A DNA stretch of 64,000 bases, taken from an uncultured Paracoccaceae bacterium (GTDB lineage Bacteria; Pseudomonadota; Alphaproteobacteria; Rhodobacterales; Rhodobacteraceae). Under the pieces are notes generated by a model. It searched no databases and was not told the DNA's origin. It saw nothing but the letters and a program-made list of their open reading frames with translations. The translations under genes and the position numbers were made by a program. Every line of letters begins with the position of its first letter. Position 1 is the first letter of the stretch. Of this stretch, positions 23,639-49,646 are shown piece after piece. The stretch is taken from positions 461,420 through 525,419 of the forward strand of contig OY288160.1 in the NCBI GenBank assembly GCA_958439195.1, read 5' to 3'.

Positions 23639-24619
23639 TCAAAATGGAAGCCTCCCACCCAGTTCTTCGTCCACATAGACCTGGATGATCTCGTGGAACG
23701 AGGTCTCGGCATTGAAGCCCAGGTCCCGTGCGCGAGCAGCTTCGAAGTCGCGGGCCCAACCAGAGACGATGCGATGAATGGTTTCATCCGGCTCTCGACG
23801 GATGAGCGCTACCGCCTTTTCACCCGCTATGTCGCGGAGTGCCGCGATCTGATCTCCGACGGTCGCGCTAACACCCGGCATTGTCAGGTTGCGACGATGC
23901 CCCATCAGGCGGGTGTCCAGCCCCGCCGCATGGTCAATGAAACCCACTGCGGCGCGCGGACTGGCATGCCAGTGGCGGATCGTGTCGGGGACTGGCAGGA
24001 TGGCGGGCAGGCCGTTCAGCGGTTCGCGCAAGATACCGGAGAAGAAACCCGAGGCTGCGGCATTCGGCTTGCCAGGACGGATGCAGATCGTGGGAAACCG
24101 AATTCCAACTCCATCAAGAAAACCGCGTCGCGAGTAATCGTCCAGAAGCAATTCGCCAATGGCCTTTTGCGTGCCGTAACTGGTCAGCGGCGTGAGGTGG
24201 AATTCATCCCCAATTTGCTCAGGGAACGGCGCGCCGAAAACGGCCAGGGAAGAGGCGTAGACGAGGCGCGGGACGTAGCCGTCAATCGCACGGATTGCGT
24301 CCAACAGAGAGCGAGTGCCGTCGAGGTTAATCGCATAGCCCTTGTCGAAATTGGCTTCGGCCTCGCCCGACACGATGGCCGCCAGATGCACAATCACATC
24401 GGGCCTGCCTTCGATCAGACGTTCCGCCGTACCCGAGCTCGAAAGATCCGCTACGATCGAATGCCGCTCGCCCTTGAAGTTGGTTGCGACCTTTGGCTCG
24501 CTTACGTCGGCGAGCGTGAGCCTGGTGACCGTCCGTCCGCCGATGGTCCCTTTGCCACACACATTATCAGCAAGTTTTCTGCCAATCATGCCGGCTGCGC
24601 CGATGATGAGAAGGTGCAT
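23639..24619 (-). CDS. denD: D-erythronate 2-dehydrogenase
   Basis: The product is 326 residues from ATG 24619, one base after the lactonase stop. It is an extended SDR: MHLLIIGAAGMIGRKLAD at the N-terminus, VIVHLAAIVSGEAEANFD, YASSLAVFGAPFP and the catalytic SYGTQKAIGELLLDDYSRRG. The motif VGIRFPTICIRPGKPNAAAS is typical of DenD. The enzyme oxidises D-erythronate at C2 to 2-oxo-tetronate, the substrate of OtnI encoded at 32975. It is last in an operon with a sugar ABC importer and a lactonase. Confidence 0.8.
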   Translation of the reverse strand: MHLLIIGAAGMIGRKLADNVCGKGTIGGRTVTRLTLADVSEPKVATNFKGERHSIVADLSSSGTAERLIEGRPDVIVHLAAIVSGEAEANFDKGYAINLDGTRSLLDAIRAIDGYVPRLVYASSLAVFGAPFPEQIGDEFHLTPLTSYGTQKAIGELLLDDYSRRGFLDGVGIRFPTICIRPGKPNAAASGFFSGILREPLNGLPAILPVPDTIRHWHASPRAAVGFIDHAAGLDTRLMGHRRNLTMPGVSATVGDQIAALRDIAGEKAVALIRREPDETIHRIVSGWARDFEAARARDLGFNAETSFHEIIQVYVDEELGGRLPF

Positions 24620-24620
24620 T

Positions 24621-26558: not shown

Positions 26559-26569
26559 TTGTGCCTTCG

Positions 26570-29436: not shown

Positions 29437-29452
29437 CTGGATATGGAAAAAG

Positions 29453-29480
29453 TGCCAGGGTGACCGTGGTCACCCTGGCA
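29453..29480 (-). terminator. Intercistronic hairpin with T-tract after the binding-protein gene
   Basis: TGCCAGGGTGACC and GGTCACCCTGGCA pair perfectly over 13 bases around a 2-base centre. On the minus strand CTTTTTCC follows. Placed between the binding-protein and ATPase genes, it would act as a partial terminator or RNA-stabilising stem giving excess binding protein over the membrane parts. Confidence 0.75.
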
Positions 29481-29490
29481 TCAAGTGGGT

Positions 29491-31694: not shown

Positions 31695-32747
31695 TCAGAA
31701 AACCACCCCATCTGTAGCGGAGGTGCCTTTGGGGGCGGCAAGTTGCAAGGCATAATCTATCGCCTCGATCAGGCTGGTCGCGTCTGCGATGCCCTGGCCG
31801 GCGATGTCGAAGGCCGTCCCGTGATCGACGGACGTTCGGATGACTGGAAGTCCCAAGGTCACATTCACGCCGCTGAGCGCTAGCCAACGCCCGGTTGCTG
31901 GATCCACTGAGAAACCCAGCAGTTTCACAGGGATATGCCCTTGATCGTGATACATGGCGACAACCGCGTCGTAATCGCCCGCGCGGAGTTTGACGAATAC
32001 AGTGTCGCCCGGGACCGGCCCAGCCACGCGTTCGCCCTGTGCGACATACTGTTTGACCAGCGGTTCCGTTACGTCAATGTCGTGGCGGCCGAAGATGCCG
32101 CCCTCGCCCGCGTGAGGATTGAGAGCCGCCACTGCAATGCGCGGGTGATCAATGCCCATCTTGCGCAGAGTTGCCAGCGTCAGGTCAATCACGCGGGCAA
32201 TTCTTTGCGCCGTCGCCTTGCCTGGTACTTCCTCCAGAGCGCAATGCGTCGTGACGTGGCTTACGCGGAACGGTCCGTGTGCCAGCATCATCACACTGCC
32301 AGTCATTCCTGTCAGGGAGGCAAGAAGTTCGGTGTGGCCAGCGAAATCATGGCCAGCAAGATGCAATGCTTCCTTGTTCAGCGGTGCGGTCACGATGCCT
32401 GTGATCTGGCCTTCCAGCGCCATACGCGTTGCAATGGCCACGGCCTGATAGGCCTGTTCTCCGGCTGCAGCGCTCAACTCGCCCCACCGGATTTCGGAGC
32501 CGGGCGGCGGTGTGGATAGAACAGCAGCACCGGCAAGGCCAGGGATGTCAGCCTCTGCTATGACTGGCGGAGGGACCAGGTCGAGTGCGGCCCCGGCACG
32601 GGCGAGCACTCCTGGATCACCAACGAGAAGCAGCGCCAGTTCCTTTGCGGCGAGCCGGCCCTTCATTTGGGCAACTGCCTTGAGTGCTATTTCGGGTCCG
32701 ATGCCTGCCGGATCGCCAAGTGTTATGGCGAGAACTGGATGCGTCAC
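31695..32747 (-). CDS. pdxA2: PdxA2-type 4-phospho-D-threonate / D-erythronate dehydrogenase
   Basis: The product is 350 residues from GTG 32747. It belongs to the PdxA family: ITLGDPAGIGPEIALKA, metal-ligand histidines in VSHVTTHCALEEVPGKA and AMYHDQGHIPVKLLGF, and ending SVDHGTAFDIAGQGIADATS. Within a tetronate cluster, PdxA2 oxidises and decarboxylates 4-phospho-D-threonate or -erythronate to DHAP; true PdxA would sit with vitamin B6 genes. Its partner kinase is probably the DtnK-like gene at 47944, unusually far away. Confidence 0.8.
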   Translation of the reverse strand: MTHPVLAITLGDPAGIGPEIALKAVAQMKGRLAAKELALLLVGDPGVLARAGAALDLVPPPVIAEADIPGLAGAAVLSTPPPGSEIRWGELSAAAGEQAYQAVAIATRMALEGQITGIVTAPLNKEALHLAGHDFAGHTELLASLTGMTGSVMMLAHGPFRVSHVTTHCALEEVPGKATAQRIARVIDLTLATLRKMGIDHPRIAVAALNPHAGEGGIFGRHDIDVTEPLVKQYVAQGERVAGPVPGDTVFVKLRAGDYDAVVAMYHDQGHIPVKLLGFSVDPATGRWLALSGVNVTLGLPVIRTSVDHGTAFDIAGQGIADATSLIEAIDYALQLAAPKGTSATDGVVF

Positions 32748-36984: not shown

Positions 36985-37010
36985 GGGAACGTTCTCAGGG
37001 AACGTTCTCA
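36985..37010. promoter_or_regulatory. Tandem LacI-type operator upstream of the second sugar ABC operon
   Basis: GGGAACGTTCTCA occurs twice back to back (36985-36997 and 36998-37010), 39 bases before the ATPase start. Each copy is a near-palindrome around a central CG (GRGAACGTTCYC), the usual form of LacI-family sites. The LacI gene at 42002 in the same operon is the obvious binder. Confidence 0.7.
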
Positions 37011-37048
37011 TAAGCGAACCGACCCTGAGTGCATGGGAGGAGACCACA

Positions 37049-38602
37049 ATGTTAGGTGCGAGGCACGACGCTGCGCGAGCAGTCGGCGAAGCGCATTCTG
37101 TCGCCCTTTTGGCCGAAGGCCTGCGTAAGGCCTATGGCGCGACGGTGGCGCTGGAGCATGCCGACATTTCGCTTGCTGCGGGCAAAGTCCATGCTCTTCT
37201 GGGCGAAAATGGCGCGGGGAAGTCGACGCTTGTTCGTATCCTGACAGGGGCGGTTCGCCCGGATGCGGGAACCCTTGAACTGAACGGCTCTTACTATGCG
37301 CCACAGACCTTGATCGAGGCGCGAAGCTATGGCGTGGCGACAGCCTTTCAGGAACTGAGCCTGGTTCCGAACCTGACGGTGGCGCAAAATCTGCTGCTGC
37401 CCGATATGCCCCGAGGGCCGCTCGGGCTGGTCTCATTCCGGCGTGTTTTGGAGATGGGCAGCGACATCCTTGCCCGCCACGGCCTGCAGCGGATTGATCC
37501 TGCGACGCAGGTCGCGCTTTTGCCTTTGGCCGAACGGCAACGGATCGAGATTGTTCGCGCGATGGAAAACGCCTCATCGCTGTTGATTCTGGATGAACCC
37601 ACTGCAGCCTTGGCGGAAACCGACTGGCTGTTTGACCGCATCAGGATGATGACGGCACGGAATGTTGCGGTGCTTTATATTTCGCACCGATTGGCCGAGG
37701 TGCGCGAAATTTGTTCTGACGCCACGGTTCTGCGAAACGGACGGTCTATCGCATCTGTCGGGCTGGCGGAAGCATCGGATGACGATATCTTTGAAATGAT
37801 GGTGGGGCGCCGGGTGGACCACACGGCCCGCAATCGTGCGGCCTCGCGTCTAAGCGATGCGGCGCCGCGCCTTTCGGTCAAGGGGCTGAGCGGGCACGGG
37901 CTGAAGGATATTTCATTCGAGCTGCGCCCCGGCGAAGTTCTGGGTATCGCGGCCTTGGAAGGGCAGGGGCAGCGTGGCCTGTTCCGGATGCTTGCAGGGC
38001 TGACCGTGCCAGAGCGCGGTGCCGTGCAGATTGACGGACTCCCCACCACCCTGAGCAGCCCGCGTCAGGCATTGCGGGCAGCGAGCGGCATCGCCTACCT
38101 GCCAGAGGAACGCAAGACGGAAGGTATCCTTGCCGGTCTCACCGCCGCAACGAATGTGGTGCTGCCCGTTCTACCTGGCGCGGCCTATGCCGCGATGATC
38201 ACTCCGCAGGCCGAGCTGCGCGCGGCTGGACCGTCGGCGACCAAAGTCGACATGAGCCCGCGCTATCTTGATTTTGCGATCGGTGATCTTTCCGGCGGCA
38301 ATCAGCAAAAGGCCCTTGTCGCCCGCACCTTGGCGACCGGGGCAAAGACACTGTTGCTGTTCGACCCGACACGTGGCGTCGATGTCGGGACCAAGCAGTC
38401 CATCTATGCCGCCATTCGCGCCTTTGCCGAACAGGGGGGATCGGTGATCTTTTATTCCTCGGAATTGCCCGAGGTGGTTCAACTCGCAGATCGCTGCCTT
38501 GCGCTTTATGACGGGCGGGTTTTCCAGGCCTTTGAGGGTGACGCCATTGCCGAACAGGCGTTGGTTGCGGCCATTCATGGCCATGCCGGGGGTCATCACT
38601 GA
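37049..38602 (+). CDS. Ribose-type ABC transporter ATPase (second system)
   Basis: ATG 37049 has GGGAGGAG upstream; product 517 residues, standard for tandem RbsA-type ATPases. The first half has Walker A GENGAGKST and LPLAERQRIEIVRAMENASS. The second half has the degenerate nucleotide loop EGQGQRGL plus DLSGGNQQKALVARTLATG and FDPTRGVDVGTKQS. It lacks the C-terminal extension of the other ATPase (27541). It is the first gene of the LacI-controlled operon. Confidence 0.9.
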   Translation: MLGARHDAARAVGEAHSVALLAEGLRKAYGATVALEHADISLAAGKVHALLGENGAGKSTLVRILTGAVRPDAGTLELNGSYYAPQTLIEARSYGVATAFQELSLVPNLTVAQNLLLPDMPRGPLGLVSFRRVLEMGSDILARHGLQRIDPATQVALLPLAERQRIEIVRAMENASSLLILDEPTAALAETDWLFDRIRMMTARNVAVLYISHRLAEVREICSDATVLRNGRSIASVGLAEASDDDIFEMMVGRRVDHTARNRAASRLSDAAPRLSVKGLSGHGLKDISFELRPGEVLGIAALEGQGQRGLFRMLAGLTVPERGAVQIDGLPTTLSSPRQALRAASGIAYLPEERKTEGILAGLTAATNVVLPVLPGAAYAAMITPQAELRAAGPSATKVDMSPRYLDFAIGDLSGGNQQKALVARTLATGAKTLLLFDPTRGVDVGTKQSIYAAIRAFAEQGGSVIFYSSELPEVVQLADRCLALYDGRVFQAFEGDAIAEQALVAAIHGHAGGHH

Positions 38603-39591
38603 TGGCGTTGGCCCAGTTCGAAGTTCAAACCGTGCCGGCGTGGAAAACCCTGTTGATCAAGTCAACGCGCGGTGCTGCCCTGATCGTCGGGATTTATCTG
38701 ATCCTCTATGCCTTCTACGCCTATCAGCAACCAAGGGCCCTATCGGCGTCGTCATTTGCGTCGCTGATGAACAACACGGCCCCGCTTGCCTTGGCTGCGG
38801 CGGGGCAGGCGCTTGTCGTGATCAGTCGCGGCTTTGATCTTTCGGTCGCAGGGGTGATTTCCATCTGCAACGTGACGCTTGCCGTCTATCCGTTGGAGGG
38901 ACCGGGCGGTGCCCTTATGTCGGCTTTGCTGTGCATGGCTATTGGGCTGACCGTCGGCGCCGTGAATGGCGTACTGGTGGCAGTGCTGCGGCTGCAATCC
39001 ATTGCCGCGACGCTGGCGACGATGATCATCTGTCAGGGGATTGCCCTTGTCATTCTGAAAGCACCCGGCGGATCCGTGGCGAACTGGATCGCGGATGAGA
39101 TGACTGGCCGTCTGGCAGGCGTGATCCCGGTGTCGGGCCTGGTGGTCGCGCTTGTGATCGGGACTTGGCTTTTGCTTCGGCGCAGCAATTTCGGCCTGTC
39201 GCTGTATGCGATCGGGGCGGATGAGCATTCTGCTGCGCTATCCGGGATCAACACCCGGCGTGTGCGGTTCCTGACCTTTGTCATAGCGGGGGCAATCTAT
39301 GGGCTGGCCGGGTTCATGTTGAGCGCGCAGACCGCGACCGGCAACCCAACTGCGGGCACGCCACTTCTGATGCTGTCCTTCGCGGCGGTGGCCTTGGGGG
39401 GCACCTCACTTTCTGGTGGGAAGGGTGGGTTGTTTGCCGCAGTGATGGGGGCCGCGGTGTTGATGCTTTTGCAGAAGGTGCTGTTCTCGTTCGGGATTTC
39501 GTCATTTTACACTGGCATGTTTCAGGGCGTCGCGTTGATTTGCGCCGTGGTGTTCAGCGGCCTTCTCACGCGGTTGGGAGAGGTGAAATGA
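38602..39591 (+). CDS. Ribose-type ABC transporter permease 1 (second system)
   Basis: The product is 329 residues, overlapping the ATPase stop by one base. Multiple hydrophobic helices and RbsC motifs are present: AAGQALVVISRGFDLSVAG, YAIGADEHSAALSGI and AAVALGGTSLSGGKGG. It pairs with a second, different permease encoded next, so the channel is likely a heterodimer. Confidence 0.9.
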   Translation: MALAQFEVQTVPAWKTLLIKSTRGAALIVGIYLILYAFYAYQQPRALSASSFASLMNNTAPLALAAAGQALVVISRGFDLSVAGVISICNVTLAVYPLEGPGGALMSALLCMAIGLTVGAVNGVLVAVLRLQSIAATLATMIICQGIALVILKAPGGSVANWIADEMTGRLAGVIPVSGLVVALVIGTWLLLRRSNFGLSLYAIGADEHSAALSGINTRRVRFLTFVIAGAIYGLAGFMLSAQTATGNPTAGTPLLMLSFAAVALGGTSLSGGKGGLFAAVMGAAVLMLLQKVLFSFGISSFYTGMFQGVALICAVVFSGLLTRLGEVK

Positions 39592-40601
39592 CGCAAACCC
39601 CTGAACCGACACCCTTTACCCAAGCAGGTGACACCAGGACCAGCGCGAAGATAAGCCGCGATACGATCAGTGCGGTATCAGTCGCCGTGCTGTGCGTGCT
39701 GCTGCTTTTGAGCGCGCGTCTGGTCAGTCCGGCGCTGGGATCTTGGACACAGGTGGAAACCGTTCTTGTGCTGGGCTTCTTTCTGGTCGTCCTGTCTTAC
39801 GGTCAGGGCCTGGTGATTCTGTCCGGTGGGCTGGATCTTTCGCTGCCCGCCACGATCACGCTTGGCGGCATTCTGGCGACAAGCTGGGTGGGCGCGAATG
39901 ACCCGAATGCCTGGTATTTGCTGCCGGTGGTTCTGATGATCTGTGGACTTGTCGGTCTGATGTCCGGGATCGGTGTGGTCTGGTTGAAAGTGCCGCCGTT
40001 CATCATGACGATGGCCATGTCGATCATCGTCGCCTCGGCCCTGCTGGGATACACCAACGGCACACCGCGCGGGGCAGCGCCTACGGCAGCGGTCGCATTG
40101 ATGAAAACCGAACTGCTGGGTCTGCCGACGCCGGTGATCGTGCTGGTGGCCTTTGTCGCCATGGGCTGGCTGTTTCAAAGCCGGTCGATTTATGGCCGAT
40201 ACCTTTACGCCATTGGAACCAATCTGGACGCGGCCCGCATTGCAGGGGTGCCGGTCACCATGATGCAGATCCTGCCCTATGTCATCAGCGCCATGTGCGC
40301 CGGTTTCGTGGGCATTGCGCTGGTGGGCTATTCGAGCGGCGCCACTCTTCGCATGGGGGATGACTACCTTTTGCCATCCATCGCGGCAGTGGTGATTGGC
40401 GGGTCGTCCATTCTGGGTGGGCGCGGCACCAACCTTGGCACCGTTGGCGGCGCGATTCTGCTGACAACACTGGGCACGATCATTTCGGCTCTTGGCATGG
40501 AGTTTGGCCTTCGGACGGTCATCGAAGGTTCGATCGTACTCTTCGCACTTCTTCTGCTGCGCGAAGAGCTTTTTCAAAAACTGCGCAATCTTTGGCGCTG
40601 A
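39588..40601 (+). CDS. Ribose-type ABC transporter permease 2 (second system)
   Basis: ATG 39588 overlaps the preceding stop (ATGA); product 337 residues. Motifs are SYGQGLVILSGGLDLSLPAT, YAIGTNLDAARIAGV and AAVVIGGSSILGGRGTNLG. The N-terminal 25 residues are polar and precede the first helix. The glutamine/serine-rich start distinguishes it from permease 1. Confidence 0.9.
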   Translation: MTQTPEPTPFTQAGDTRTSAKISRDTISAVSVAVLCVLLLLSARLVSPALGSWTQVETVLVLGFFLVVLSYGQGLVILSGGLDLSLPATITLGGILATSWVGANDPNAWYLLPVVLMICGLVGLMSGIGVVWLKVPPFIMTMAMSIIVASALLGYTNGTPRGAAPTAAVALMKTELLGLPTPVIVLVAFVAMGWLFQSRSIYGRYLYAIGTNLDAARIAGVPVTMMQILPYVISAMCAGFVGIALVGYSSGATLRMGDDYLLPSIAAVVIGGSSILGGRGTNLGTVGGAILLTTLGTIISALGMEFGLRTVIEGSIVLFALLLLREELFQKLRNLWR

Positions 40602-40643
40602 CCAGAACGACACAAGACGATCATCACGGAGGAGGAGACCACG

Positions 40644-41864
40644 ATGAACATCAACCGCATGAAGACATCAGTCGCGACCGCAGCCCTTGCTGCGGCAAGC
40701 CTGACCTGGGCCGCGCAGGCGCAGGCGCAGGATGGCGAAAAGTTCAAAATCTATCTGAGCCTCAGCTATTCCGGCAACGCATGGCAGTCCGAGGCTGCGA
40801 ATATCGTCAAGGCGCTGGCTGCGACCCCGCCCTATGACACGCAGGTCGAACTGATCGAGAACATCTCGGGCACTGACCCACAGGCGCAGATCGCGGCCTA
40901 TGAGAGCATGATCGACGATGGGGCTGATGCGATCATCAGCTTTCCGATTTCGTCCACCGCGCTGAACCGCACCATCCGTCGCGGGTGCGATGAGGGTGTG
41001 CTGTTCTTCATGTATGACGGCACAGTGACCGAAGATTGCGCCTATAACGTCAGCTTCCTGTCGGCGGGTTTCGGCGAGAATACGGCGCAGGCGCTGGTGA
41101 ATGAACTGGGTGGCAAGGGCAAGATCTTCCTGTCGCGCGGCGTTCCCGGCAACTCGGTCGATCAGCGGCATACGGATGGCGCGATGAGCGTGTTCAGCAA
41201 GTATCCGGGCATCGAGATCGTGGCAGAATACTATTCCTTCTGGGATGACCGGACGACCCAGCAGGAAACCGCAAAGGCGCTGGCCGCCCATCCGCAGGTT
41301 GATGGTGTCTGGGCCCAGGCTGGGGAATATGGTGTCATTCAGGCGCTTCTGGATGCGGGCCGCCCTCTGGTGCCGATGACGGGCGAGAACTCGGCCGGCT
41401 TCCGCCGTGCGCTTGCCGATCCGGAAATGCAGGCCAAGGGTCTGCGGGGGGTGTCTTCGGGATCGGGTCCGGCACAGTCGGGCTATGCGTTCAAACTGGC
41501 GATGGAAATCTTGACCGGTCAGCGCGAACTTGAACCGCAGAACATCGAATACCCGCTGCCCTGGGTGCCTGCGGCCGAGGTGAAGATCTGTGAAGGCGAC
41601 AGCTATACCGACGGGTGCAACGTGTTCCCCGAAAGCAAGGTGCCGTCTTCTTTCGTGAGTGAGGTGCTGAACCCTGTGCTGCTGCCCGAAATCAACGTCG
41701 AGTCCGCGTTGAACGGGACGCCGGTTCCGGGTGCCACGATCCAGCCGCTGCCTGCAGATGTGGTGGTGACCGCCAATAACGAGCCGGGCATCAACTGCGA
41801 CCCGTGCGAGGCAGCACCGGATCTGTACAAGCTGACCAAGGTTGAAGCGACGGTTCAGCCGTAA
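40644..41864 (+). CDS. Sugar ABC transporter periplasmic binding protein (second system)
   Basis: GGAGGAGACCACG precedes ATG 40644; product 406 residues, larger than RbsB. The signal peptide ends at AQAQAQ. The body shows DDGADAIISFPISSTALNRT, FLSRGVPGNSVDQRHTDGAM and VWAQAGEYGVIQALLDAG. The C-terminal region has four cysteines (KICEGDSYTDGCN, INCDPCEAAPD) that could form disulfides in the periplasm. A strong terminator follows, so this gene ends the transporter transcript at least in part. Confidence 0.88.
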   Translation: MNINRMKTSVATAALAAASLTWAAQAQAQDGEKFKIYLSLSYSGNAWQSEAANIVKALAATPPYDTQVELIENISGTDPQAQIAAYESMIDDGADAIISFPISSTALNRTIRRGCDEGVLFFMYDGTVTEDCAYNVSFLSAGFGENTAQALVNELGGKGKIFLSRGVPGNSVDQRHTDGAMSVFSKYPGIEIVAEYYSFWDDRTTQQETAKALAAHPQVDGVWAQAGEYGVIQALLDAGRPLVPMTGENSAGFRRALADPEMQAKGLRGVSSGSGPAQSGYAFKLAMEILTGQRELEPQNIEYPLPWVPAAEVKICEGDSYTDGCNVFPESKVPSSFVSEVLNPVLLPEINVESALNGTPVPGATIQPLPADVVVTANNEPGINCDPCEAAPDLYKLTKVEATVQP

Positions 41865-41875
41865 CCCACCAAACA

Positions 41876-41912
41876 GGGCTGCCCGGCTGTCAGATTGACA
41901 GTCGGGCAGCCC
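41876..41912 (+). terminator. Strong hairpin terminator after the binding-protein gene
   Basis: GGGCTGCCCGGCTGTCA pairs with TGACAGTCGGGCAGCCC (16 of 17 bases, one G-T) around GAT. It lies 11 bases after the binding-protein stop. The run after it is CTTCG with only a weak T-tract, so read-through into lacI is possible. Confidence 0.75.
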
Positions 41913-42001
41913 CTTCGCCGCGCATGGATTGTGATGGACAGCCGTTGTGCAAAATCGCGGATATGAGGATGGAGCCTCTTATTCCGTTGGAGTACGCCAA
42001 G

Positions 42002-43048
42002 ATGGATCAGATCAAGCCGGGTTCAAGAAATCGCGTCACGGTCAAGGACCTTGCGCGTGATCTGGGAATGTCCGTTTCCACCGTGTCGCGTGCATTCTAC
42101 CCCGATGCGGTAATCGCGGTTGAGACGCGCAAGGTGGTGTTGGACCATGCAGCAAAGATCGGTTATCGGCCCAATCCTTTTGCCCAAAGTCTGATCACAA
42201 AGAAAACCAAGATTGCCGGGATGGTGGTTTCCGGCCTTACCAACCCGTTCTATCCCGAGGTCATGACCCGGCTGACAGCCCTGTTGCAGCAGGCCGGGGT
42301 CAATCTGATGTTGGCGGCCGCCGAAGAGCCCGAAAAGATCGACGAGGCAGTCGAACTGCTGCTGACCTATCAGCCCGATCTGATGATCGTATTGGCAACC
42401 AATCTGGACTCGCGCGCGCGCGAGAAATGCGAAGCGGCGGGGGCGCCTGTCATCTTTTTCAACCGTCTGTCAGCCGACGGCCTTGGCTATGGCGTTTCTT
42501 GTGACAACGTCGAAGGCGGACGAATCGCTGCGGATCATCTGATCGACCTTGGGCATCGGGAATTGGCTTATGTTTCCGCATTCCCTGGCGCATCCACCAA
42601 TGTGGAACGGCAACGCGGGTTTTGCGACCGCGCCGTGGAGCGGGGACTTGCTCCGCCGCAAGTGATAGATGCGGGCATCTTTTCCTATGAAGCAGGCTAT
42701 GCCGTAGGACTGCGTCTGAACGATCTACCACGCCGCCCAGAGGGCGTATTGTGCGCCAATGATATTGTCGCGATCGGTTTCATCGAAGCCTTGCAGGAAG
42801 GGCTTGGGATCCACGTTCCCAAAGATGTTTCGGTGATCGGCTATGACGACATCGCCATGGCAGGGTGGCCGTCGCACCGGTTGACCACTGTCGCCCAACC
42901 TTTGGACGAGATGATGGCCGCGACGGTGCTCTTGGCGCGTGAACTTGCCGCCGAGCGACAGATACCGCAACGGATCCTTCGCATTCCGCCAGGTCCGCTG
43001 GTTGAACGAAGTACCGTGCAGGATCGCCGAAAAGGAGAGGGGAAATGA
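42002..43048 (+). CDS. LacI-family transcriptional regulator
   Basis: From ATG 42002 the product is 348 residues; earlier in-frame starts at 41924 and 41963 exist. The helix-turn-helix VTVKDLARDLGMSVSTVSRA is typical, followed by GYRPNPFAQSLITKKT hinge helix and a periplasmic-binding-like ligand domain (GMVVSGLTNPFYPEVMTRL, SVIGYDDIAMAGWPSHRLTT). The tandem operator at 36985-37010, and perhaps the site at 34751, are its likely targets. It overlaps the next gene by four bases, tying it to the catabolic genes. Confidence 0.9.
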   Translation: MDQIKPGSRNRVTVKDLARDLGMSVSTVSRAFYPDAVIAVETRKVVLDHAAKIGYRPNPFAQSLITKKTKIAGMVVSGLTNPFYPEVMTRLTALLQQAGVNLMLAAAEEPEKIDEAVELLLTYQPDLMIVLATNLDSRAREKCEAAGAPVIFFNRLSADGLGYGVSCDNVEGGRIAADHLIDLGHRELAYVSAFPGASTNVERQRGFCDRAVERGLAPPQVIDAGIFSYEAGYAVGLRLNDLPRRPEGVLCANDIVAIGFIEALQEGLGIHVPKDVSVIGYDDIAMAGWPSHRLTTVAQPLDEMMAATVLLARELAAERQIPQRILRIPPGPLVERSTVQDRRKGEGK

Positions 43049-43593
43049 CCGAACCCGACCTGTTCACGCGTCTGGCAGCCACGCACAAGCCTGACTGTCT
43101 GTTGTCGCTGGATGGTCCCCTTCCCGAAGCCGTGCCCGACCCCGAAGAGCTTGGCCGCACGCTAGGGTCTGATGCTGTGGCCGCTTATGCAGGGGCTTGT
43201 CGTACGATTTACGAAGACCTGCGCCGCGTGATCGGGCAGCTATCGGGGCTGTTGATCCTTGCGCGGCTGACAAACAAAACAGAAATGGGCGACTTGCCGG
43301 AAATGGCGCAATGCCGCGCCCGTTGGAATGAGGCGGGGCAGAGGCTGGCCGCGCTGTTCCCCCCGGCCGGGTTGCAGCGCCACAAGGCGCAACTGAACGG
43401 GGCGCATGTCTTCAGCGGTCATGTCATCGCTGCCGCACGCGATCTGCGCAGAGGGTCTGACATGGACGCACAGCTTGACCTGATGACGGTGCAGATCAAG
43501 CGCGCCTATGCCCATCTGGAGGCTGCAAGCGCCCCGAAGGCAGGACTGCAGATGGTTGATTTCACACATGCTTGCTGTGCCTGCGCGCATTGA
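43045..43593 (+). CDS. Protein of unknown function with Cys/His-rich C-terminus
   Basis: The product is 182 residues and overlaps the lacI stop (ATGA). It is mainly helical (CRTIYEDLRRVIGQLSGLLI, ARWNEAGQRLAALFPPAG, DLMTVQIKRAYAHLEAAS) and ends in HACCACAH, four residues of which are cysteine or histidine pairs suited to metal binding. No family is recognised. Its place between regulator and lactonase-like gene suggests a dedicated role in this pathway. Confidence 0.6.
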   Translation: MTEPDLFTRLAATHKPDCLLSLDGPLPEAVPDPEELGRTLGSDAVAAYAGACRTIYEDLRRVIGQLSGLLILARLTNKTEMGDLPEMAQCRARWNEAGQRLAALFPPAGLQRHKAQLNGAHVFSGHVIAAARDLRRGSDMDAQLDLMTVQIKRAYAHLEAASAPKAGLQMVDFTHACCACAH

Positions 43594-43627
43594 CCGCGCA
43601 GGACGAAGAACACGGAGGGAGGATACG

Positions 43628-44515
43628 ATGGCGGACTATTCGATCTGGGTGCTGGAATACTGCTATGTCAGCAAATACCACAAAAGTGGCGTCCTGTATG
43701 GCGCCCATAATCAGGGTTATGTGAAGCTTCCTTACTGCTATGTGGTGATCAAGGGTCGCGATCATGTGGCGATGGTGGATGTCGGCTATAACGACAAGGC
43801 CTATGGCAAGGTGCTGGGCGACCGGTTCGGTGTGGAAAACTGGCGTGATCCGAAGGCGGTTCTGGCCGAGATCGGCCTTTCGCCGGCGGATGTGGATACC
43901 TGTTTCATCAGTCACGCCCATTTTGACCATTTCGGCAACGTGGAGGATTTCCCCAAGGCGAAGTTCTACATCCAGGAACGCGAGATTTCGAAATGGGTCT
44001 GGGCGATGTCGCTGCCAGATCGGATGCGGTGGATGATGGTGGCCGTTGATCCAGGTGACATCGTTCGCGGCGTGGGACTTGCGGCAGAAAAGCGGTTGGT
44101 CACAGTTGACGGTGCGATGGAGGATGTACTTCCCGGCATCGACCTGCATTCGGCACCGGACAGCCACACATGGGGTTCGATGTGGGTGACCGTCCGCAAT
44201 GATGGGCAAAAGCAATCGCAGGACGCATGGGTGTTGGCCGGTGATCTTGTCTACCAGTTCGACAACCTGAAAAGCTCCGGTGCGGTGGTGGACGTCGATA
44301 CGATGTACACCCCGGTTGGCCTGGCCGTTGGCAGCCAGACCAACCTGATTCTTGCGACCGAAGAGATGATGTCGCAGGTCGGTTATGAGGCGCGCCGCGT
44401 GATCCCGATCCATGAGGAGGGCCTGCGAGATGCCTTCCCGTCGCGTATCAGCAAGGATGGCCTGCGTGTCACCGAAATCTGCCTCGCCGATGGCGAGAAC
44501 TCGAAGGTGGCCTGA
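43628..44515 (+). CDS. Metallo-beta-lactamase-fold hydrolase, lactonase-like (AttM/AHL lactonase family)
   Basis: ATG 43628 follows GGAGGGAGGATACG; product 295 residues. The zinc motif HAHFDH lies at 96-101, with further ligands in HSAPDSHTWGSMW, LAGDLVYQFDN and the final PIHEEGL. Relatives hydrolyse N-acyl-homoserine lactones, gamma-butyrolactone or 4-pyridoxolactone. In a sugar operon it more likely opens a sugar lactone. Its stop overlaps the next start by one base. Confidence 0.75.
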   Translation: MADYSIWVLEYCYVSKYHKSGVLYGAHNQGYVKLPYCYVVIKGRDHVAMVDVGYNDKAYGKVLGDRFGVENWRDPKAVLAEIGLSPADVDTCFISHAHFDHFGNVEDFPKAKFYIQEREISKWVWAMSLPDRMRWMMVAVDPGDIVRGVGLAAEKRLVTVDGAMEDVLPGIDLHSAPDSHTWGSMWVTVRNDGQKQSQDAWVLAGDLVYQFDNLKSSGAVVDVDTMYTPVGLAVGSQTNLILATEEMMSQVGYEARRVIPIHEEGLRDAFPSRISKDGLRVTEICLADGENSKVA

Positions 44516-45456
44516 TGACCGATCAGCGTCCGGTTGCCATTGTCGGAGCAGGGCTGGTCGGCTCGGGCTGGGCGCTGGTTTTTGCGCGCGCGGGGTATCA
44601 CGTTGCAGTCTATGACCCTTCGCCCGACATTCGGGCGGGGGTTGTGCCATGGGCGCGACAGAGCCTTGCCGAGTTGACCCACGCGGGATTGGTGGATGCG
44701 CCAGATGAGATCGTCGCCCGGATCACCCTGCATGATACATTGCAGGCAGCTTTGGCTGGCGCGTTCTACGTGCAGGAGTCGGTCTATGAAACCGTTGCGG
44801 CCAAGACGGAGGTCAGCCTTGCGATCGACGCGTTGATGGATGCAGATGCGGTGGTGGGGTCGTCATCATCGGGGATACCGGCGTCGAAATTCACCGCAGA
44901 CTGTGCCAATCGCGAACGGTTCCTGATAGCGCACCCCGTCAATCCGCCCCATCTGGTTCCGGTTGTGGAACTGGTTCCCGCACCTTGGACATCGCCCGCA
45001 GCGGTGGATCTGGTGGCCGACCTCATGAAGACGGTGAAACAGGTGCCTGTGCGCCTGACGCGCGAAATTGACGGTTTTGTCCTGAACCGCTTGCAGGGTG
45101 TTCTGCTGAACGAGGCTTGGGCACTCTATGAGGACGGCATCGCCAGCCTTGCGGATATTGACGCCACCATAGCCTATGGTCTTGGTCTGCGCTGGTCCTT
45201 CATGGGGCCGTTCGAGACGATTGACCTGAACGCTCCTGGCGGGATCGAGGATTACGCCACCCGCTTGCGCGGGCTTTACGCCGGAATGGTGCGGACGCCT
45301 CCGCCCGGACCGTGGCCCGATGCGGTGGTAGCAAAGGCCACTGCAGAACGTCGCGCCGCCCTTCCGGTGGATGCGCTGGCCGAACGGCGGGCCTGGCGGG
45401 ACGGTGTTCTGGGGCGGCTTTTAGCCTTCAAGAAATCCAACTGTCTTGCGGATTGA
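44515..45456 (+). CDS. 3-hydroxyacyl-CoA dehydrogenase-family oxidoreductase, L-gulonate 3-dehydrogenase-like
   Basis: The product is 313 residues. The NAD loop [21 protein letters not shown] is followed by [16 protein letters not shown], the catalytic [11 protein letters not shown] and [17 protein letters not shown], and C-terminal [18 protein letters not shown]. This is the lambda-crystallin / L-gulonate 3-dehydrogenase branch, not fatty-acid HAD. It would oxidise a sugar acid at C3 and so follows naturally after a lactonase. Confidence 0.8.
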
Positions 45457-45506
45457 TGACAGCGATCCCGCCGGACAAGACCCACAGAGTTTGCAAGGAA
45501 GAGAAA

Positions 45507-46817
45507 ATGACCGTCACCTACCTGAAAAACAGCAAGTCCGACGATGCACGGTCAGAAGATGACGCCGCAGTTCGAGCATCTGTCGAAGCCATTCTCAGTG
45601 ACATCGAAGCCCGTGGAGATGCCGCGGTTCGCGACCTTTCGGAAAAGTTCGATAAATACTCGCCCCCTGCCTTTCGTCTGACAGACGGCGACGTCGAGGC
45701 GTTGATGAATCGTGTCAGCCCACGCGACATGGAAGATATCAAATTCGCCCAGGAGCAGGTTCGCAACTTTGCACGGGCACAGCGCGCATCCATGCGAGAT
45801 ATCGAGATCGAGACGATGCCGGGCGTGATCTTGGGGCATCGCAATATTCCGGTTCAATCGGTGGGTTGTTATGTGCCCGGCGGCAAGTTCCCGATGGTAG
45901 CTTCGGCGCACATGTCTGTGGCCACTGCATCGGTTGCCGGCGTGCCCCGCATCATCGCGGCGACGCCGCCCTTCAAGGGCGAACCAAACCCGGCGGTGAT
46001 TGCTGCCATCAAGCTGGGTGGCGCGCATGAGATCTATGTCATGGGCGGAATTCAGGCCGTGGGCGCGATGGCCATCGGCACCCAGACGATCAAGCCTGTC
46101 GACATGTTGGTCGGTCCGGGCAATGCCTATGTCGCCGAAGCCAAGCGCCAGCTTTATGGCCGTGTCGGGATTGACCTGTTCGCCGGCCCGACAGAGACGA
46201 TGGTGATCGCGGATGACACTGTGGATGCAGAACTCTGTGCAACAGATCTTCTGGGCCAGGCCGAGCACGGCTACAACTCGCCCGCCGTACTCCTGACGAA
46301 CAGTCACAAACTGGCTGTCGCGACGATGGTGGAAATTGACCGCTTGCTGGAAATCCTGCCCACAGCCGACACCGCCCGGAAGAGCTGGCAAGACTATGGT
46401 GAGGTTATCGTCTGCGACACGCATGACGAGATGTTGGCCGTTGCAAACGACATCGCGTCCGAACACGTTCAGGTCATGACCGACAGGGATGACTGGTATC
46501 TGGAACATATGCACAGCTACGGCGCGCTGTTTCTGGGGGCCCGGACCAATGTCGCCAATGGGGACAAGGTGATCGGCACCAATCACACATTGCCTACCAA
46601 GAGGGCCGGGCGCTATACGGGCGGGCTGTGGGTGGGCAAGTTCCTGAAAACCCACAGCTATCAGCGCATTACCACGGACGAGGCGGCGGCGATGATCGGG
46701 GCCTATGGGTCGCGTCTGTGCATGTTGGAAGGTTTTGTCGGCCACGCCGAACAATGCAACATTCGCGTTCGTCGTTATGGCAAGCGCAACGTAGCCTATG
46801 GCACAGCGGCCGAATGA
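45507..46817 (+). CDS. Histidinol-dehydrogenase-family NAD dehydrogenase (HpsN-like)
   Basis: AAGGAAGAGAAA precedes ATG 45507; product 436 residues. HisD-type features are [51 protein letters not shown] and zinc/catalytic residues in [18 protein letters not shown] and [17 protein letters not shown]. No other histidine genes are near. HisD paralogues of this kind oxidise primary alcohols to acids in two steps, for example HpsN on 2,3-dihydroxypropane-1-sulfonate. The true substrate here is unknown; a sugar alcohol or diol is likely. Confidence 0.8.
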
Positions 46818-47575
46818 CAGCCGCCGCCCCCAACTTTAGGCTGGATGGAAAGCGGGCACTCGTCACAGGGGCATCACGGGGTATCGGGCTTGCCATCGCA
46901 CAGGCATATGCAGCGGCAGGTGCCGACGTGACCCTTTGCGCGCGTACCGCAGCCGAAGTTGAACGCGCCGCGGACGAACTGTCGGCTTCAGGTCTGTTGG
47001 CCAGAGCGATGGTCGCCGATGTGACCGACATCGCGGCCTTTGCTGACTTGATTGCGACAGAGCCTGCCTATGATGTTTTCGTCAATAACGCTGGGACCAA
47101 TCGACCAAAGCCTCTGAGGGAGGTCACTGAGGATGACTATGACACAGTCTTGAACCTGAACCTCCGCGCAGCGCTTTTTGCAGCGAAAGCCGTCAGTAGA
47201 GGCATGGTGCTTGAGGGCAGAGGTGGATCAATCATCAACATGTCATCACAAATGGGCCATGTCGGAGCGGCCAATCGCACGCTCTATTGCGCGTCGAAGT
47301 GGGCGATCGAAGGCTTCACCAAGGCTCTGGCTATTGAGCTTGGCCAGCATCACATCCGGGTCAACACGATATGCCCCACCTTCATCGAAACGCCAATGAC
47401 ACAGGGTTACTTTGAAGATACGGCATTTCGCACGGCAGTTCTTTCGAAGATAAAGTTGGGGCGCCTTGGGACGGTCGAAGATGTGACGGGAGGGGCAATA
47501 TTCCTTGCCTCGGACGCATCAAGCCTGATGACGGGGAGCGCCCTCATGCTTGATGGCGGCTGGACCGCAGATTGA
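46814..47575 (+). CDS. SDR oxidoreductase
   Basis: ATG 46814 overlaps the preceding stop (ATGA); product 253 residues. Cofactor loop [35 protein letters not shown], serine region [14 protein letters not shown] and YCASK are all intact. The lysine/arginine pattern RTAAE after strand 2 leaves NAD versus NADP open. It ends the LacI-linked operon and may act on the same polyol or sugar as the HisD-like enzyme. Confidence 0.82.
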
Positions 47576-47727
47576 TCATTTCTACGTCGGGCTCGGGCGG
47601 CACACCTTTGCCATCCAGTTTCGCGACACGCCGGTGCGAACGGCGCTCAGGTATCTGCGAGCAAGCGAAAGATTGTCTGTGATCACAACCCAGTTCTACC
47701 GGACGATTGGGACGGGAACCTGCACGT

Positions 47728-47835
47728 CAATCGAGTTAGCGAAAATCAGGCGTGAGGTATTGACGGCGGCGGACGGCGTTGTGTTGCTGGCCGATAGCTC
47801 CAAGATCTTCAGACGCGCCTTCTGCAACTTCAGGC
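47728..47835 (+). pseudogene. DeoR-family regulator remnant
   Basis: In one frame REVLTAADGVVLLADSSKIF followed by RRAFCNF matches the C-terminal effector domain of DeoR regulators (VLLADSSKxGRxAF). Before and after it the frame is lost. The 368-base gap between the SDR and the kinase is otherwise without a gene. Confidence 0.45.
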
Positions 47836-47943
47836 CCAGTCGAGTACCGCCCCGCACGTCAAAGATGACCACCTTTCATCAGGGGACAGGGCTTACTTGT
47901 GGGACGCCGCTGTAATGCTTGAGATCGTTTATGAGGCCGACGC

Positions 47944-49005
47944 ATGATTTATTCCGGTGGACCCGTCCGCATCGTTGCAGATGATCTGACCGGTGCGCTT
48001 GATGCCGCCGCTCCGTTTGCAAGCTCGGACCATCCGGTTGGACTGGTTCTGGACGCCAAACAACTTCCAGACCGCCTAAACCTGACAATCAGCACTGATA
48101 GCCGCGACAGTTCCCCTGACGAAGCCGCGGCAGCGACCGTCCGCGCTTGCAACGTGCTACGCCAAGCACATCCTGGTATTCCGGCTCTTTGGTTCCACAA
48201 GGTGGACAGTGTTCTTCGTGGTCAACCGTTTGCAGCGACCGCCGCCATGATGAAGCGTCTCGGGTTGGAACGCTGCTTATTTGCTCCCGCGTTCCCAGCG
48301 ATGGGGCGCATAACGCGGGGCGGGCAGCACTTGGTGCTGACTGGGGCTGATTGGCGACCGGTTGCCAAGGCAGACATCATGCAGGGGTTGCGGTCAGCGG
48401 GATTGACACCGGCGAGCGAGGATAGGAGTCTATTTGACCGCACAAACGCCATTGTTGTGGACGCTGAAACTCAAGGTGACCTTGACCGTGCTGCTGCACG
48501 GCACGTTGACCCGCGCATCTTGTGGGTCGGTAGCCGCGCTTTAGCCGAGTCTTTGGTGGGACATGTTTCGCCGGTCCTCTGTCCTCCCTTTGCCATCGTT
48601 CTGGTTGGTACTGCTCACCCTATAACCCGCGCACAGGTTGCGTTCGCCGCAACGCGCTTTGCTATGGCTCCTGTGACGGGACCGATCAAGCCAGCCGCTG
48701 ATGAGTGCGTGCTCATCGACCCTGTAAGCGAGAGCGCGGATCCAGATCTAACGCAGGTGGCGGTCATTCAGGCGGTGCGGCGGATGGATCCTGATGGGTT
48801 CAAAGGACGAAGTCTGTTCGTCACAGGTGGTGAAACGCTGTCGATCGTTCTGAATGCGGCAGAGGCGAGAAGTGTGGATTGTATAGGCGAGGTTGCCCCA
48901 GGATTGCCGATTTCCGCCGTGCGCGGCGGGCGGCTTGATGGCATCATGATTGTTACAAAGTCGGGCGGGTTCGGAACGCCTGACCTACTGATCCGCAACT
49001 GCTGA
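47944..49005 (+). CDS. dtnK: Four-carbon acid sugar kinase, D-threonate kinase-like
   Basis: The product is 353 residues, shorter than OtnK or OiaK (420-450). DUF1537 motifs are VRIVADDLTGALDAAAPFAS, WFHKVDSVLRGQPFAAT and FAPAFPAMGRITRGGQHL. The C-terminal nucleotide part keeps LFVTGGETLSIVLN and VTKSGGFGTPDLL. The VDSVLRG form is that of D-threonate/D-erythronate kinases acting with PdxA2. It lies 15 kb from pdxA2, next to decayed sequence at the island's right end. Confidence 0.7.
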   Translation: MIYSGGPVRIVADDLTGALDAAAPFASSDHPVGLVLDAKQLPDRLNLTISTDSRDSSPDEAAAATVRACNVLRQAHPGIPALWFHKVDSVLRGQPFAATAAMMKRLGLERCLFAPAFPAMGRITRGGQHLVLTGADWRPVAKADIMQGLRSAGLTPASEDRSLFDRTNAIVVDAETQGDLDRAAARHVDPRILWVGSRALAESLVGHVSPVLCPPFAIVLVGTAHPITRAQVAFAATRFAMAPVTGPIKPAADECVLIDPVSESADPDLTQVAVIQAVRRMDPDGFKGRSLFVTGGETLSIVLNAAEARSVDCIGEVAPGLPISAVRGGRLDGIMIVTKSGGFGTPDLLIRNC

Positions 49006-49570: not shown

Positions 49571-49616
49571 TTGGCTCCGGCGGTAGGGATCGAACCTACG
49601 ACCAATTGATTAACAG
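49571..49616. repeat. attR: tRNA-Asn 3' end at the right island border
   Basis: This is the partner of 9789-9834, 46 bases identical, and lies within the intact tRNA-Asn gene. The element is therefore on the 3' side of the tRNA, and the tRNA was restored on insertion. Confidence 0.87.
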
Positions 49617-49646
49617 TCAACTGCTCTACCGCTGAGCTACGCCGGA
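49572..49646 (-). tRNA. tRNA-Asn (anticodon GTT)
   Basis: The minus strand folds as a 75-base cloverleaf. The acceptor TCCGGCG pairs with CGCCGGA, followed by discriminator G and encoded CCA. The D-arm is GCTCAGCGGTAGAGC, the anticodon loop CTGTTAA and the T-loop GGTTCGATCCC. It is the insertion target of the island. Confidence 0.95.

Follow-up and report, generated by a model that had tools for sequence, protein, structure and literature searches.

In the window (the whole stretch of 64,000 nucleotides that was analysed), ten co-directional genes occupy positions 37049-47575 of the + strand and are preceded by a tandem palindromic operator. The first-pass annotation had described nine genes running in one direction with overlaps from 42002 on. 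The common direction was confirmed, and the named genes and their families were recovered with Pfam and NCBIfam on the + strand, but the genes are ten and only three of the five junctions from 42002 on overlap (LacI/CC-tail protein, -4; MBL/3HCDH, -1; HisD/SDR, -4), the others being gaps of +34 (CC-tail protein/MBL) and +50 (3HCDH/HisD).

Importer, regulator and operator

The genes of an ABC importer come first and encode an RbsA-like ATPase (37049..38602, +; PF00005 in two stretches), two permeases (38602..39591 and 39588..40601, both + and PF02653) and a periplasmic binding protein of the CUT2/ribose type (40644..41864, +; PF13407). A LacI-family regulator (42002..43048, +; PF00356 and PF13377) follows. 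The operator (GGAACGTTCTCAGGGAACGTTCTC; 36986..37009, +) lies 40 bp upstream of the first gene and is a probable LacI site; position 36985, where the system had been proposed to begin, coincides with this palindrome. The operator pattern was matched once in the 64-kb window and never in 100 shuffles, and in the own genome (G000) it occurs in a single place at up to 3 mismatches, the control with the backwards-read pattern giving 0 forward and 1 reverse matches in that genome. Elsewhere it was found in one place in G862 and in two places in the Pararhizobium gei plasmid, and searches of G783 and G784 gave none. The tandem operator is common to five loci, in the same place (the window, L001, L002, L008 and L123); in L002 one half is degenerate.

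The importer, LacI, CC-tail protein, MBL and HisD genes were found together in the window, L001, L002, L008, L123, L009, L066 and L139. The truncated contig L003 carries the genes for the binding protein, LacI, the CC-tail protein, the MBL and part of the 3HCDH; in L066 the sequence stops inside an ABC gene, so that a 3HCDH gene may lie beyond its coverage. The claim that this gene set had no assigned substrate stood, as none was found in the open-licence PMC literature, in which few subscription journals are covered. An operon with its own switch that imports and oxidizes a small sugar alcohol or sugar acid is probable. That the ten genes belong to a single catabolic operon under LacI control, in which import, oxidation, lactone opening, transfer of a tetronate to the four-carbon pathways nearby and a partner role of the CC-tail protein are all combined, has a probability of about 0.5.

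Oxidoreductases of the cluster

The 3HCDH-family dehydrogenase (44515..45456, +) scored 396.7 bits with PRK06129 (cut-off, 347), and its best PDB match was the lambda-crystallin 3ado (E 6.5e-61, residues 7-307). This full-length relation places it among the L-gulonate 3-dehydrogenase/lambda-crystallin proteins, and a sugar acid is its predicted substrate. The following gene (45507..46817, +; PF00815) encodes a HisD/HpsN-family alcohol-to-acid dehydrogenase paralogue. A biosynthetic HisD was considered and rejected, a second Histidinol_dh gene at C15:101695 scoring higher (553.8 vs 447.5 bits); no other histidine gene was seen among the identified neighbours of the HisD-like gene. The last gene of the ten encodes an accessory SDR oxidoreductase (46814..47575, +; PF13561). 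Of the enzyme set first proposed, HisD and MBL recur, whereas the SDR lies outside the conserved core and is absent beside the cluster in L001, L009, L066 and L139. HisD chemistry needs no lactone intermediate, which counts against a lactone step.

The HisD-like enzyme and the SDR had also been likened to the sulfopropanediol system. In such a sulfonate route the former would act as a dehydrogenase of DHPS (sulfopropanediol), with the SDR as its stereochemical counterpart, and the closest solved relatives of the HisD-like enzyme are indeed DHPS 3-dehydrogenases (best PDB match 8v35, sulfopropanediol 3-dehydrogenase, E 4.5e-112). According to passages of the HpsN report (PMC11382572), that enzyme has catalytic Glu318/His319 and the zinc ligands Gln248, His251, Asp352 and His411, and His126 of CpHpsN recognizes the sulfonate. 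The fold is alike here, and the corresponding residues E319, H320, Q251, H254, D353 and H413, as well as a lysine beside the zinc aspartate, are kept in 11/11 relatives, so that a four-electron alcohol oxidation is expected. However, the sulfonate-recognizing histidine is replaced by Met130 (GKFPM vs GRYAH), and this position is Met in 10/11 and Leu in 1/11 aligned relatives. The likeness does not hold at the residue that recognizes DHPS, and a sulfonate route is very unlikely.

The MBL hydrolase and its probable partner, the CC-tail protein

The MBL-fold hydrolase (43628..44515, +) is over the cut-off of PF00753 and carries HxHxDH together with a third His (H180), the bridging Asp (D206), Y209 and a fourth His (H262). 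The metal ligands are invariant in 22/22 and in 28/28 aligned relatives; the structure model has a mean pLDDT of 33. The HxHxDH-H-D-H site and the D-x-x-Y motif are shared with AiiA, AttM, 4-pyridoxolactonase and PDB 8x78, and the protein is a probable lactonase. It is about 30% identical to 8x78 over nearly the full length (E 1.5e-39); nothing on the function of 8x78 was found in the open-licence PMC literature. In contrast to these MBL-fold lactonases and to 8x78, the window MBL falls into a subfamily of its own, for which a partner gene upstream is obligate.

Two more specific assignments were considered. Relatives of the MBL are annotated in PLSDB as quorum-quenching N-acyl homoserine lactonases, and the D206-x-x-Y209 spacing presumably matches the catalytic Tyr of AiiA; however, the protein reached at most 30.8 bits with the NCBIfam models of these lactonases (cut-offs 360-475), far under the curated cut-offs of AiiA, AttM, AidB, AhlS and YtnP, and the MBL genes sit within sugar-type operons; this activity is very improbable. 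In a heterocycle route like that of vitamin B6 degradation, the SDR, the MBL lactonase and the 3HCDH would act on a ring hydroxymethyl/aldehyde/lactone series. Among the NCBIfam models, 4-pyridoxolactonase ranks first for the MBL and the FHMPC dehydrogenase of the B6 pathway ranks third for the 3HCDH, but both scores are far below the cut-offs (40.8 vs 325 and 156.2 vs 500 bits, respectively), the importer is of the sugar type, a LacI regulator is present, and the neighbours include an acid-sugar kinase and a PdxA-like gene; such a route is highly improbable. A sugar lactonase is preferred as the probable function; no papers on MBL lactonases acting on tetronolactones were found in the open-licence PMC literature.

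The gene directly ahead of the MBL encodes the CC-tail protein (HP; 43045..43593, +), 182 residues long. It had been described as a protein of no known family, and indeed no Pfam or NCBIfam model matched it, but it is not an isolated unknown, as it belongs to a paired family. The neighbourhood analysis that had been suggested for its homologues placed an HP gene directly upstream of 29/29 MBLs of the subfamily (at least 40% identical to the window MBL) and of 0/39 more distant MBLs examined, when no identity or E filter was applied, each distinct place was taken once and matches of 100 or fewer residues were excluded; an earlier pairing test had left out MBL matches of less than 28% identity with E above 1e-40. 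The 29 pairs include near-identical ones (L016, L047, L110). The MBL gene W12:159516, counted once among the 29, is divided between two frames, and its second piece appears as a 30th row at 38%. Separate HMM searches of 16 genomes or records, selected as pair-bearing, gave 24 genes each for HP and for the subfamily MBL, every HP gene adjoining an MBL gene, 19 of the 24 HPs being already in the search profile and 5 not; an HP match at E 0.0098 (noise) and the MBL G776:C25 (E 4.8e-69, other subfamily) were left out of this count. Held-out MBLs fitted the pairing in 7/7 cases. The subfamily-A clade was recovered in the tree (28/28) with a support of 0.225. The distant MBLs have identical metal ligands and lack a partner gene, which counts against a need for HP.

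Among 394 genomes of the window's family, HP was found in the own genome, along with one weak match with three in-frame stops. The MBL model located subfamily A in at least one of 385 class genomes (the own genome) among the candidates scored, and at least three of 398 phylum genomes had matches at E<=1e-60; both are lower bounds, as scoring was limited to 6 candidates from each genome in most of the rows shown. The viral contigs scanned for MBL and HP contained no relatives.

An orphan or spurious open reading frame was ruled out for the CC-tail gene, which encodes a real protein because its dN/dS is 0.14-0.17 against three relatives. HPs constitute an undescribed, fast-evolving family whose gene lies directly ahead of one lactonase-like MBL type, with identities to the window protein as low as 17%. 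None of 22 members matched Pfam at E 0.01, and the one NCBIfam match among them (flagellin, E 0.0013) was taken as chance. The HP gene of L016 is missing from its annotation. A four-helix bundle with a disordered tail is predicted (pLDDT 75, tail below 50, in a model built on 4 sequences), and a Foldseek search of this model in the PDB gave 319 matches at E<=10 and 0 at E<=0.001. The tail comprises residues 164-182 (43534..43590, +), with Cys177-Cys178 at 43573-43578. A vicinal Cys-Cys near the C-terminus is present in 29/29 HPs, and the motif was found in 22/22 aligned members against a mean of 0.70 and a maximum of 4 in shuffles. In L116 the pair is positioned 46 residues ahead of the stop, and L010 has a shifted motif (SCACC).

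A histidine cluster lies at residues 108-122 (43366..43410, +), at the start of helix 3, and in the predicted bundle it is at the same end as the Cys-Cys tail. At least two His are present in 19/22 aligned HPs, two HPs have one and that of L065 has none. The mean density was 2.82 His per 15 residues in the 22 members (shuffled, 0.63, with 1.18 as the largest in 2000), and more tail Cys went with fewer His (Spearman -0.73, 15 non-redundant members), both tests having been picked after inspection of the sequences of related proteins.

Several roles of the CC-tail protein were weighed. A subunit of the adjoining oxidoreductase was rejected because the oxidoreductase family changes among loci and the MBL does not. 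A role as precursor of a cofactor-like modified peptide made on the ribosome, with the tail as core, would account for the short conserved C-terminal motif and the tail disorder, but no known peptide-modifying enzyme adjoins it in the annotated loci and the helical part is more variable than the tail, unlike usual leader peptides, so that little credence is given to it. A thiol carrier or redox relay, with an aldehyde or acyl group held on Cys and released by the MBL as a glyoxalase-II-type thioesterase, would suit the vicinal Cys on a flexible tail, the fold common to the MBL and glyoxalase II and the several unrelated families of neighbouring oxidoreductases; HisD-type enzymes, however, make the acid without a thiol, and the His cluster with its inverse relation to the tail Cys number favours a metal, which leaves the thiol carrier unlikely.

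The CC-tail protein would rather assist the MBL as a dedicated partner, its likeliest task being to handle a metal ion (or an intermediate bound to a thiol) by means of the flexible Cys-Cys tail and the His cluster. Cys tails for metal relay or metallochaperone function are known in Cox17 (CCxC) and in MerA (C-terminal Cys pair). The flexible vicinal-Cys tail is alike in HP, but no sequence or significant fold similarity to these metallochaperones was found, and HP differs in being a helical bundle of a family without a Pfam or meaningful NCBIfam model; no papers on MBL metallochaperones were found in the open-licence PMC literature. More tentatively, with somewhat less than even odds, HPs may be a new class of MBL-lactonase partner, namely helical-bundle metallochaperones or metal/thiol-relay subunits in which the Cys-Cys tail and the His cluster together make up a single site. 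The subfamily would then comprise the first two-gene MBL lactonases, and the pair would have been re-used in sugar-acid pathways of the HisD, GMC, aldo/keto-reductase and PrpD types. MBL-fold enzymes are not generally known to need a helper, and an obligate, fast-evolving Cys-Cys partner would, if true, introduce a new principle into a very large hydrolase fold, to which lactonases and beta-lactamases belong. The CC-tail designation gives a name to a family of unannotated genes.

Neighbouring tetronate genes and proposed pathway

A short DUF1537-family acid-sugar kinase (47944..49005, +; PF07005 and PF17042) lies downstream of the ten genes. It scored 121.6 bits with the D-threonate kinase (DtnK) model (cut-off, 450), and the short DUF1537 kinases of other loci are divergent, 32-43% identical to the window copy. 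Upstream, a PdxA-family dehydrogenase (31695..32747, -; TIGR00557, 347 bits, over the cut-off) would be PdxA2, acting on tetronate 4-phosphate, rather than PdxA. Between 32975 and 36792 are the genes for 2-oxo-tetronate isomerase (OtnI, -), L-threonate dehydrogenase (LtnD, -), 3-oxo-tetronate kinase (OtnK, +) and 3-oxo-tetronate-4-phosphate decarboxylase (OtnC, +), and a D-erythronate dehydrogenase is encoded at 23639..24775 (-; NF043036, 354.8 bits, cut-off 325); all five exceed the NCBIfam equivalog cut-offs.

A short DUF1537 gene and a PdxA-like gene lie close to the cluster in the window as well as in 5/7 other loci, a PdxA homologue adjoining the short DUF1537 gene in L001, L137, L138, L066 and L139, and in G783 and G784 both genes are in the same gene run as the cluster. 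In six whole genomes, 7/16 DUF1537 genes are no more than about 10 kb away from the cluster, with about 0.1 expected if evenly spread. Neither gene was seen within the 20-29 kb examined in L002 and L008, and the P. gei plasmid lacks DUF1537 altogether. Because DUF1537 kinase and PdxA-like genes are nearby, a substrate leading to a four-carbon acid (tetronate) and dihydroxyacetone phosphate as the end product are proposed.

A branched C5 route would instead assign the operon to D-apiose, apionate or a relative, with HP-MBL as an apionolactonase-type unit. An ApnL-like gene with its importer at 24621-30474 and a RuBisCO-like gene in 7/7 AKR-type HP-MBL loci, two of them annotated oiaX (3-oxo-isoapionate-4-phosphate decarboxylase), point to it. 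The ApnL-like protein, however, already provides a lactonase of its own (score 618.9 bits, under the cut-off of 750), and the HisD-type clusters have PdxA-like genes and no RuBisCO-like gene in their annotations; a C5 substrate is distinctly unlikely.

In the four-carbon pathway preferred here, the importer would take up a small molecule, be it a polyol, an aldose or a sugar acid, for which four carbons are most likely, the HisD-like enzyme would convert a primary alcohol into a carboxylate with removal of four electrons, the SDR also oxidizing in some strains, and the MBL hydrolase would open a lactone, the resulting tetronate passing to the nearby four-carbon pathways. In one branch it would be phosphorylated by the short DUF1537 kinase and converted by oxidative decarboxylation with PdxA2 into dihydroxyacetone phosphate; in the other, C3 oxidation by the 3HCDH would give 3-oxo-tetronate, from which OtnK and OtnC would form the same product. 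An importer-plus-oxidation operon with alcohol or aldose oxidation, lactone opening and C3 oxidation, as outlined in the first-pass annotation, is consistent with this scheme. HisD-like dehydrogenases, often annotated as sulfonate or histidine enzymes, would thereby gain a link to acid-sugar catabolism and a substrate class open to testing.

The PDB relatives of the binding protein 40644 are 4pe6 (E 1e-25) and, more distantly, 4rs3, 5hko and 4rsm (E about 2-3e-19), the last three of which we take to be polyol-binding proteins. This distant relation connects it with the Mycobacterium smegmatis system for D-threitol, L-threitol and erythritol utilization, reportedly described by Huang and co-workers in 2015 (a reference in PMC5445326). 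To our knowledge, that system uses other enzymes and has no HP-MBL pair. Tetronate catabolism proceeds through LtnD/OtnI/OtnK/OtnC or through PdxA2 together with a DUF1537 kinase (Zhang et al. 2016, a reference in PMC9997740 and PMC12540250). The neighbourhood and the kinase and PdxA families are alike here, and dihydroxyacetone phosphate is likely the common end product; the known routes begin at free tetronates, whereas an importer, the HisD-like enzyme, the 3HCDH, the MBL and the CC-tail protein precede them in the window. Between the SDR and kinase genes is a DeoR-family remnant (47550..47915, +) with only the C-terminal part (a match to DeoRC residues 56-96 at E 6.9e-5, which does not reach the Pfam cut-off), and an intact DeoR gene adjoins the DUF1537 gene in L001, L123/L137 and L138.

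Pairing of the CC-tail protein with a lactonase-like hydrolase

The gene at 43045-43593 encodes a 182-residue protein with a CC tail and is followed by the gene of an MBL-fold hydrolase, probably a lactonase (43628-44515). MBL homologues with 40-100% identity were gathered from plasmids, public genomes and further genomes, and each distinct place was inspected for an ORF of at least 120 residues that ends between -60 and +100 bp from the MBL start and carries CC in its last 60 residues. Such an ORF was located upstream of all 29 MBLs of this subfamily (at least 40% identical to the window MBL), with gaps of -29 to +47 bp, and of none of the 39 distinct MBLs below 32% identity. Separate HMM searches of 16 genomes or records yielded 24 genes for each protein, all adjacent and on one strand, five of these CC-tail proteins being outside the search profile. 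The pairs outside the alignments (L109-L113, L115, L116) also fit (7/7). An obligate CC-tail partner of a lactonase-like enzyme is the surprising point of this analysis.

The enzymes encoded around the pair were HisD in nine cases (plus the truncated locus L003), GMC oxidoreductase in seven, aldo/keto reductases with a RuBisCO-like gene in seven, PrpD with SDR in three, SDR with a RuBisCO-like gene and a kinase in one, and a Sodalis context in one. As these contexts vary and the MBL is always there, the constant partner of the CC-tail protein is the MBL. In 9 of the 29 places the CC-tail gene extends 29 bp into the MBL frame, so that its very last residues are dictated by the overlap, a coupling that fits partner proteins. 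The MBL residues HxHxDH, H180, D206, H262 and Y209 were invariant both in 22 and in 28 members, which indicates an intact hydrolase site; we take the D-x-x-Y element to match that of AiiA. Since distant MBLs have the same ligands without the partner, the MBL fold as such does not need it. The dN/dS ratios were 0.14-0.17 for the faster evolving CC-tail protein versus 0.018-0.055 for the MBL.

The pair is sparse. The CC-tail protein search in 394 genomes of the family returned only the genome itself and one weak match with stops. With the MBL, only the own genome was found among the matches listed for 385 genomes of the class, and at least three genomes at E<=1e-60 among 398 of the phylum. In one small order the pair was present in 3 of the 17 genomes, one of which has four copies, and many Rhizobiaceae plasmids carry it as well. 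Genome G783 has four pairs (L060, L063-L065, L066, L068-L070), each with a different enzyme set: HisD, kinase and PdxA; GMC (two); SDR, RuBisCO-like and kinase. A CC-tail ORF at 9523-10029 of L016 is absent from the annotation of that record, and in L122 (W12:C1:159516-160464) the subfamily MBL gene is split over two reading frames, either as a broken copy or by a sequencing error. The MBLs of L018, L019, L050, L051, L114 and L117 belong to a second subfamily with 25-31% identity to the window MBL; their genes come directly after the gene of an RbsC-type permease within ABC operons and have no CC-tail gene before them.

Predicted fold and candidate site of the CC-tail protein

None of 22 CC-tail proteins matched Pfam, and the one NCBIfam match among members was at chance level; identity to the window protein falls as low as 17%. 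The AlphaFold model, built from four sequences, contains helices at 43-76, 85-103, 108-133 and 140-162 (pLDDT 75 overall) and a tail (164-182) with pLDDT under 50, and retrieved no PDB fold at E<=0.001. Most members share the tail motif G-[FLM]-x-x-[VI]-D-[FL]-x-x-[AS]-C-C. CC was present in the last 45 residues of 22/22 proteins (shuffles: mean 0.70, maximum 4) and of 15/15 at 60% non-redundancy. In post hoc tests on related sequences, a 15-residue stretch at the start of helix 3 held 2.82 histidines on average (0.63 in shuffles, at most 1.18), with at least two in 19/22, and the number of these histidines was inversely related to that of tail cysteines (Spearman -0.62, n=22; -0.73, n=15). 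The protein of L065 lacks histidine there and has a CCCC tail. From the topology of the antiparallel bundle, the histidine end of helix 3 would lie opposite the helix 4 terminus from which the tail exits. The histidine cluster and the cysteine tail fit one composite metal site, the main alternative being that the protein acts as a thiol carrier.

Operon layout, operator and conservation of the cluster

Ten genes, and not nine as counted in the first-pass annotation, run in one direction on the + strand (37049-47575): RbsA-like ATPase, two permeases, CUT2-type binding protein (40644-41864), LacI (42002-43048), the CC-tail protein, the MBL, a lambda-crystallin/L-gulonate-dehydrogenase-like 3HCDH (44515-45456), a HisD-family enzyme (45507-46817) and an SDR (46814-47575). 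The gaps are, in order, -1, -4, 42, 137, -4, 34, -1, 50 and -4 bp; the overlaps previously described from 42002 on hold for three of the last five junctions (-4, -1 and -4 bp), and the other two are gapped (34 and 50 bp). The first gene is preceded, at a distance of 40 bp, by a tandem operator, GGAACGTTCTCAGGGAACGTTCTC (36986-37009), whose two palindromes are 13 bp apart. Its pattern matched once in the window versus 0 in 100 shuffles and, with up to 3 mismatches, at a single place in the whole genome; the control pattern, read backwards, had one match in that genome, on the reverse strand. The ATPase genes of L001, L002, L008 and L123 have the same operator in front of them, with one half degenerate in L002; a pattern search of genomes G783 and G784 did not find it. 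The ten genes probably form one operon under one switch, and the operator is presumably bound by LacI. In Pararhizobium gei a second tandem copy (L142, NZ_CP119410.1 160412-160435) lies directly 5' of a divergent methyl-accepting chemotaxis gene, from which the operon substrate may be a chemoattractant.

Importer, LacI, CC-tail protein, MBL and HisD occur together in the window and in L001, L002, L008, L123, L009, L066 and L139, and the 3.9-kb contig L003 holds binding protein, LacI, CC-tail protein, MBL and part of 3HCDH. The 3HCDH gene was also present in L001, L002, L008, L123, L009 and L139 (in the latter before the ATPase, cut by the end of the fetched stretch); the stretch of L066 is too short to decide. 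The SDR gene was found in the window, L002, L008 and L123, and in L001, L009, L066 and L139 the cluster has no SDR gene next to it. The operon plausibly encodes an undescribed acid-sugar/polyol route, though one known in kind.

Elsewhere in the window, 24621-30474 is a probable apionate-type cluster, with an ApnL-like protein (618.9 bits, below the cut-off of 750) adjoining a separate ABC importer and a GntR-type regulator. An integrase-like ORF (10062-11360) lies upstream of the catabolic region and a tRNA-Asn gene (49572-49646) downstream.

Proposed lower pathway, candidate substrate and HisD-like enzyme

A short, divergent DUF1537 kinase gene and a PdxA-family gene adjoin the cluster in L001, L123/L137 and L009/L138, and in L066 and L139 both are within one run of genes with the pair. 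In the window the kinase gene (47944-49005) starts 368 bp 3' of the SDR gene, a remnant (47550-47915) of a DeoR-family regulator that is intact in relatives lies between them, and the PdxA-family gene is at 31695-32747. Neither gene was found within the fetched stretches of L002 and L008, nor DUF1537 on the P. gei plasmid. Six whole genomes together have 16 DUF1537 genes, seven of which are no more than about 10 kb away from the cluster, about 0.1 being expected by our own arithmetic if evenly spread. The window also encodes D-erythronate dehydrogenase, 2-oxo-tetronate isomerase, L-threonate dehydrogenase, 3-oxo-tetronate kinase and 3-oxo-tetronate-4-P decarboxylase, all above NCBIfam cut-offs. 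The chemistry of the tetronate pathway is treated in PMC12540250, and PMC9997740 describes PdxA2 as a paralogue acting in organic-acid catabolism. The 3HCDH, a beta-hydroxyacid dehydrogenase, would yield 3-oxo-tetronate, the substrate of OtnK, if it acts on a tetronate at C3. PdxA2 carries out C3 oxidation once the acid is phosphorylated. Because of these tetronate genes, the DUF1537/PdxA neighbours and this C3 chemistry, a four-carbon substrate is the best guess. Solved relatives of the binding protein include 4rs3, 5hko and 4rsm, presumably polyol-binding proteins.

The best solved relatives of the HisD-like enzyme are the sulfopropanediol (DHPS) 3-dehydrogenases (E 4.5e-112). According to PMC11382572, the sulfonate is recognised by His126 of CpHpsN, whereas the window enzyme has Met130 (motif GKFPM) at that position, which is Met in 10 and Leu in 1 of 11 aligned relatives. 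The catalytic Glu319/His320 and the zinc ligands Gln251, His254, Asp353 and His413 were conserved in 11/11. Together, these residues suggest a reaction like that of HpsN, from alcohol to acid, and by its defining residue the enzyme is not, as judged from the alignment, an HpsN member. A second HisD gene elsewhere in the genome scores higher than that of the window. Relatives with 79-88% identity occur widely on plasmids, in contexts other than this one; on a Paracoccus alcaliphilus plasmid (L057) a HisD-like gene 81% identical to that of the window runs with a Ugp-type importer, an SDR, LacI and several genes annotated as ester cyclase, without the pair.
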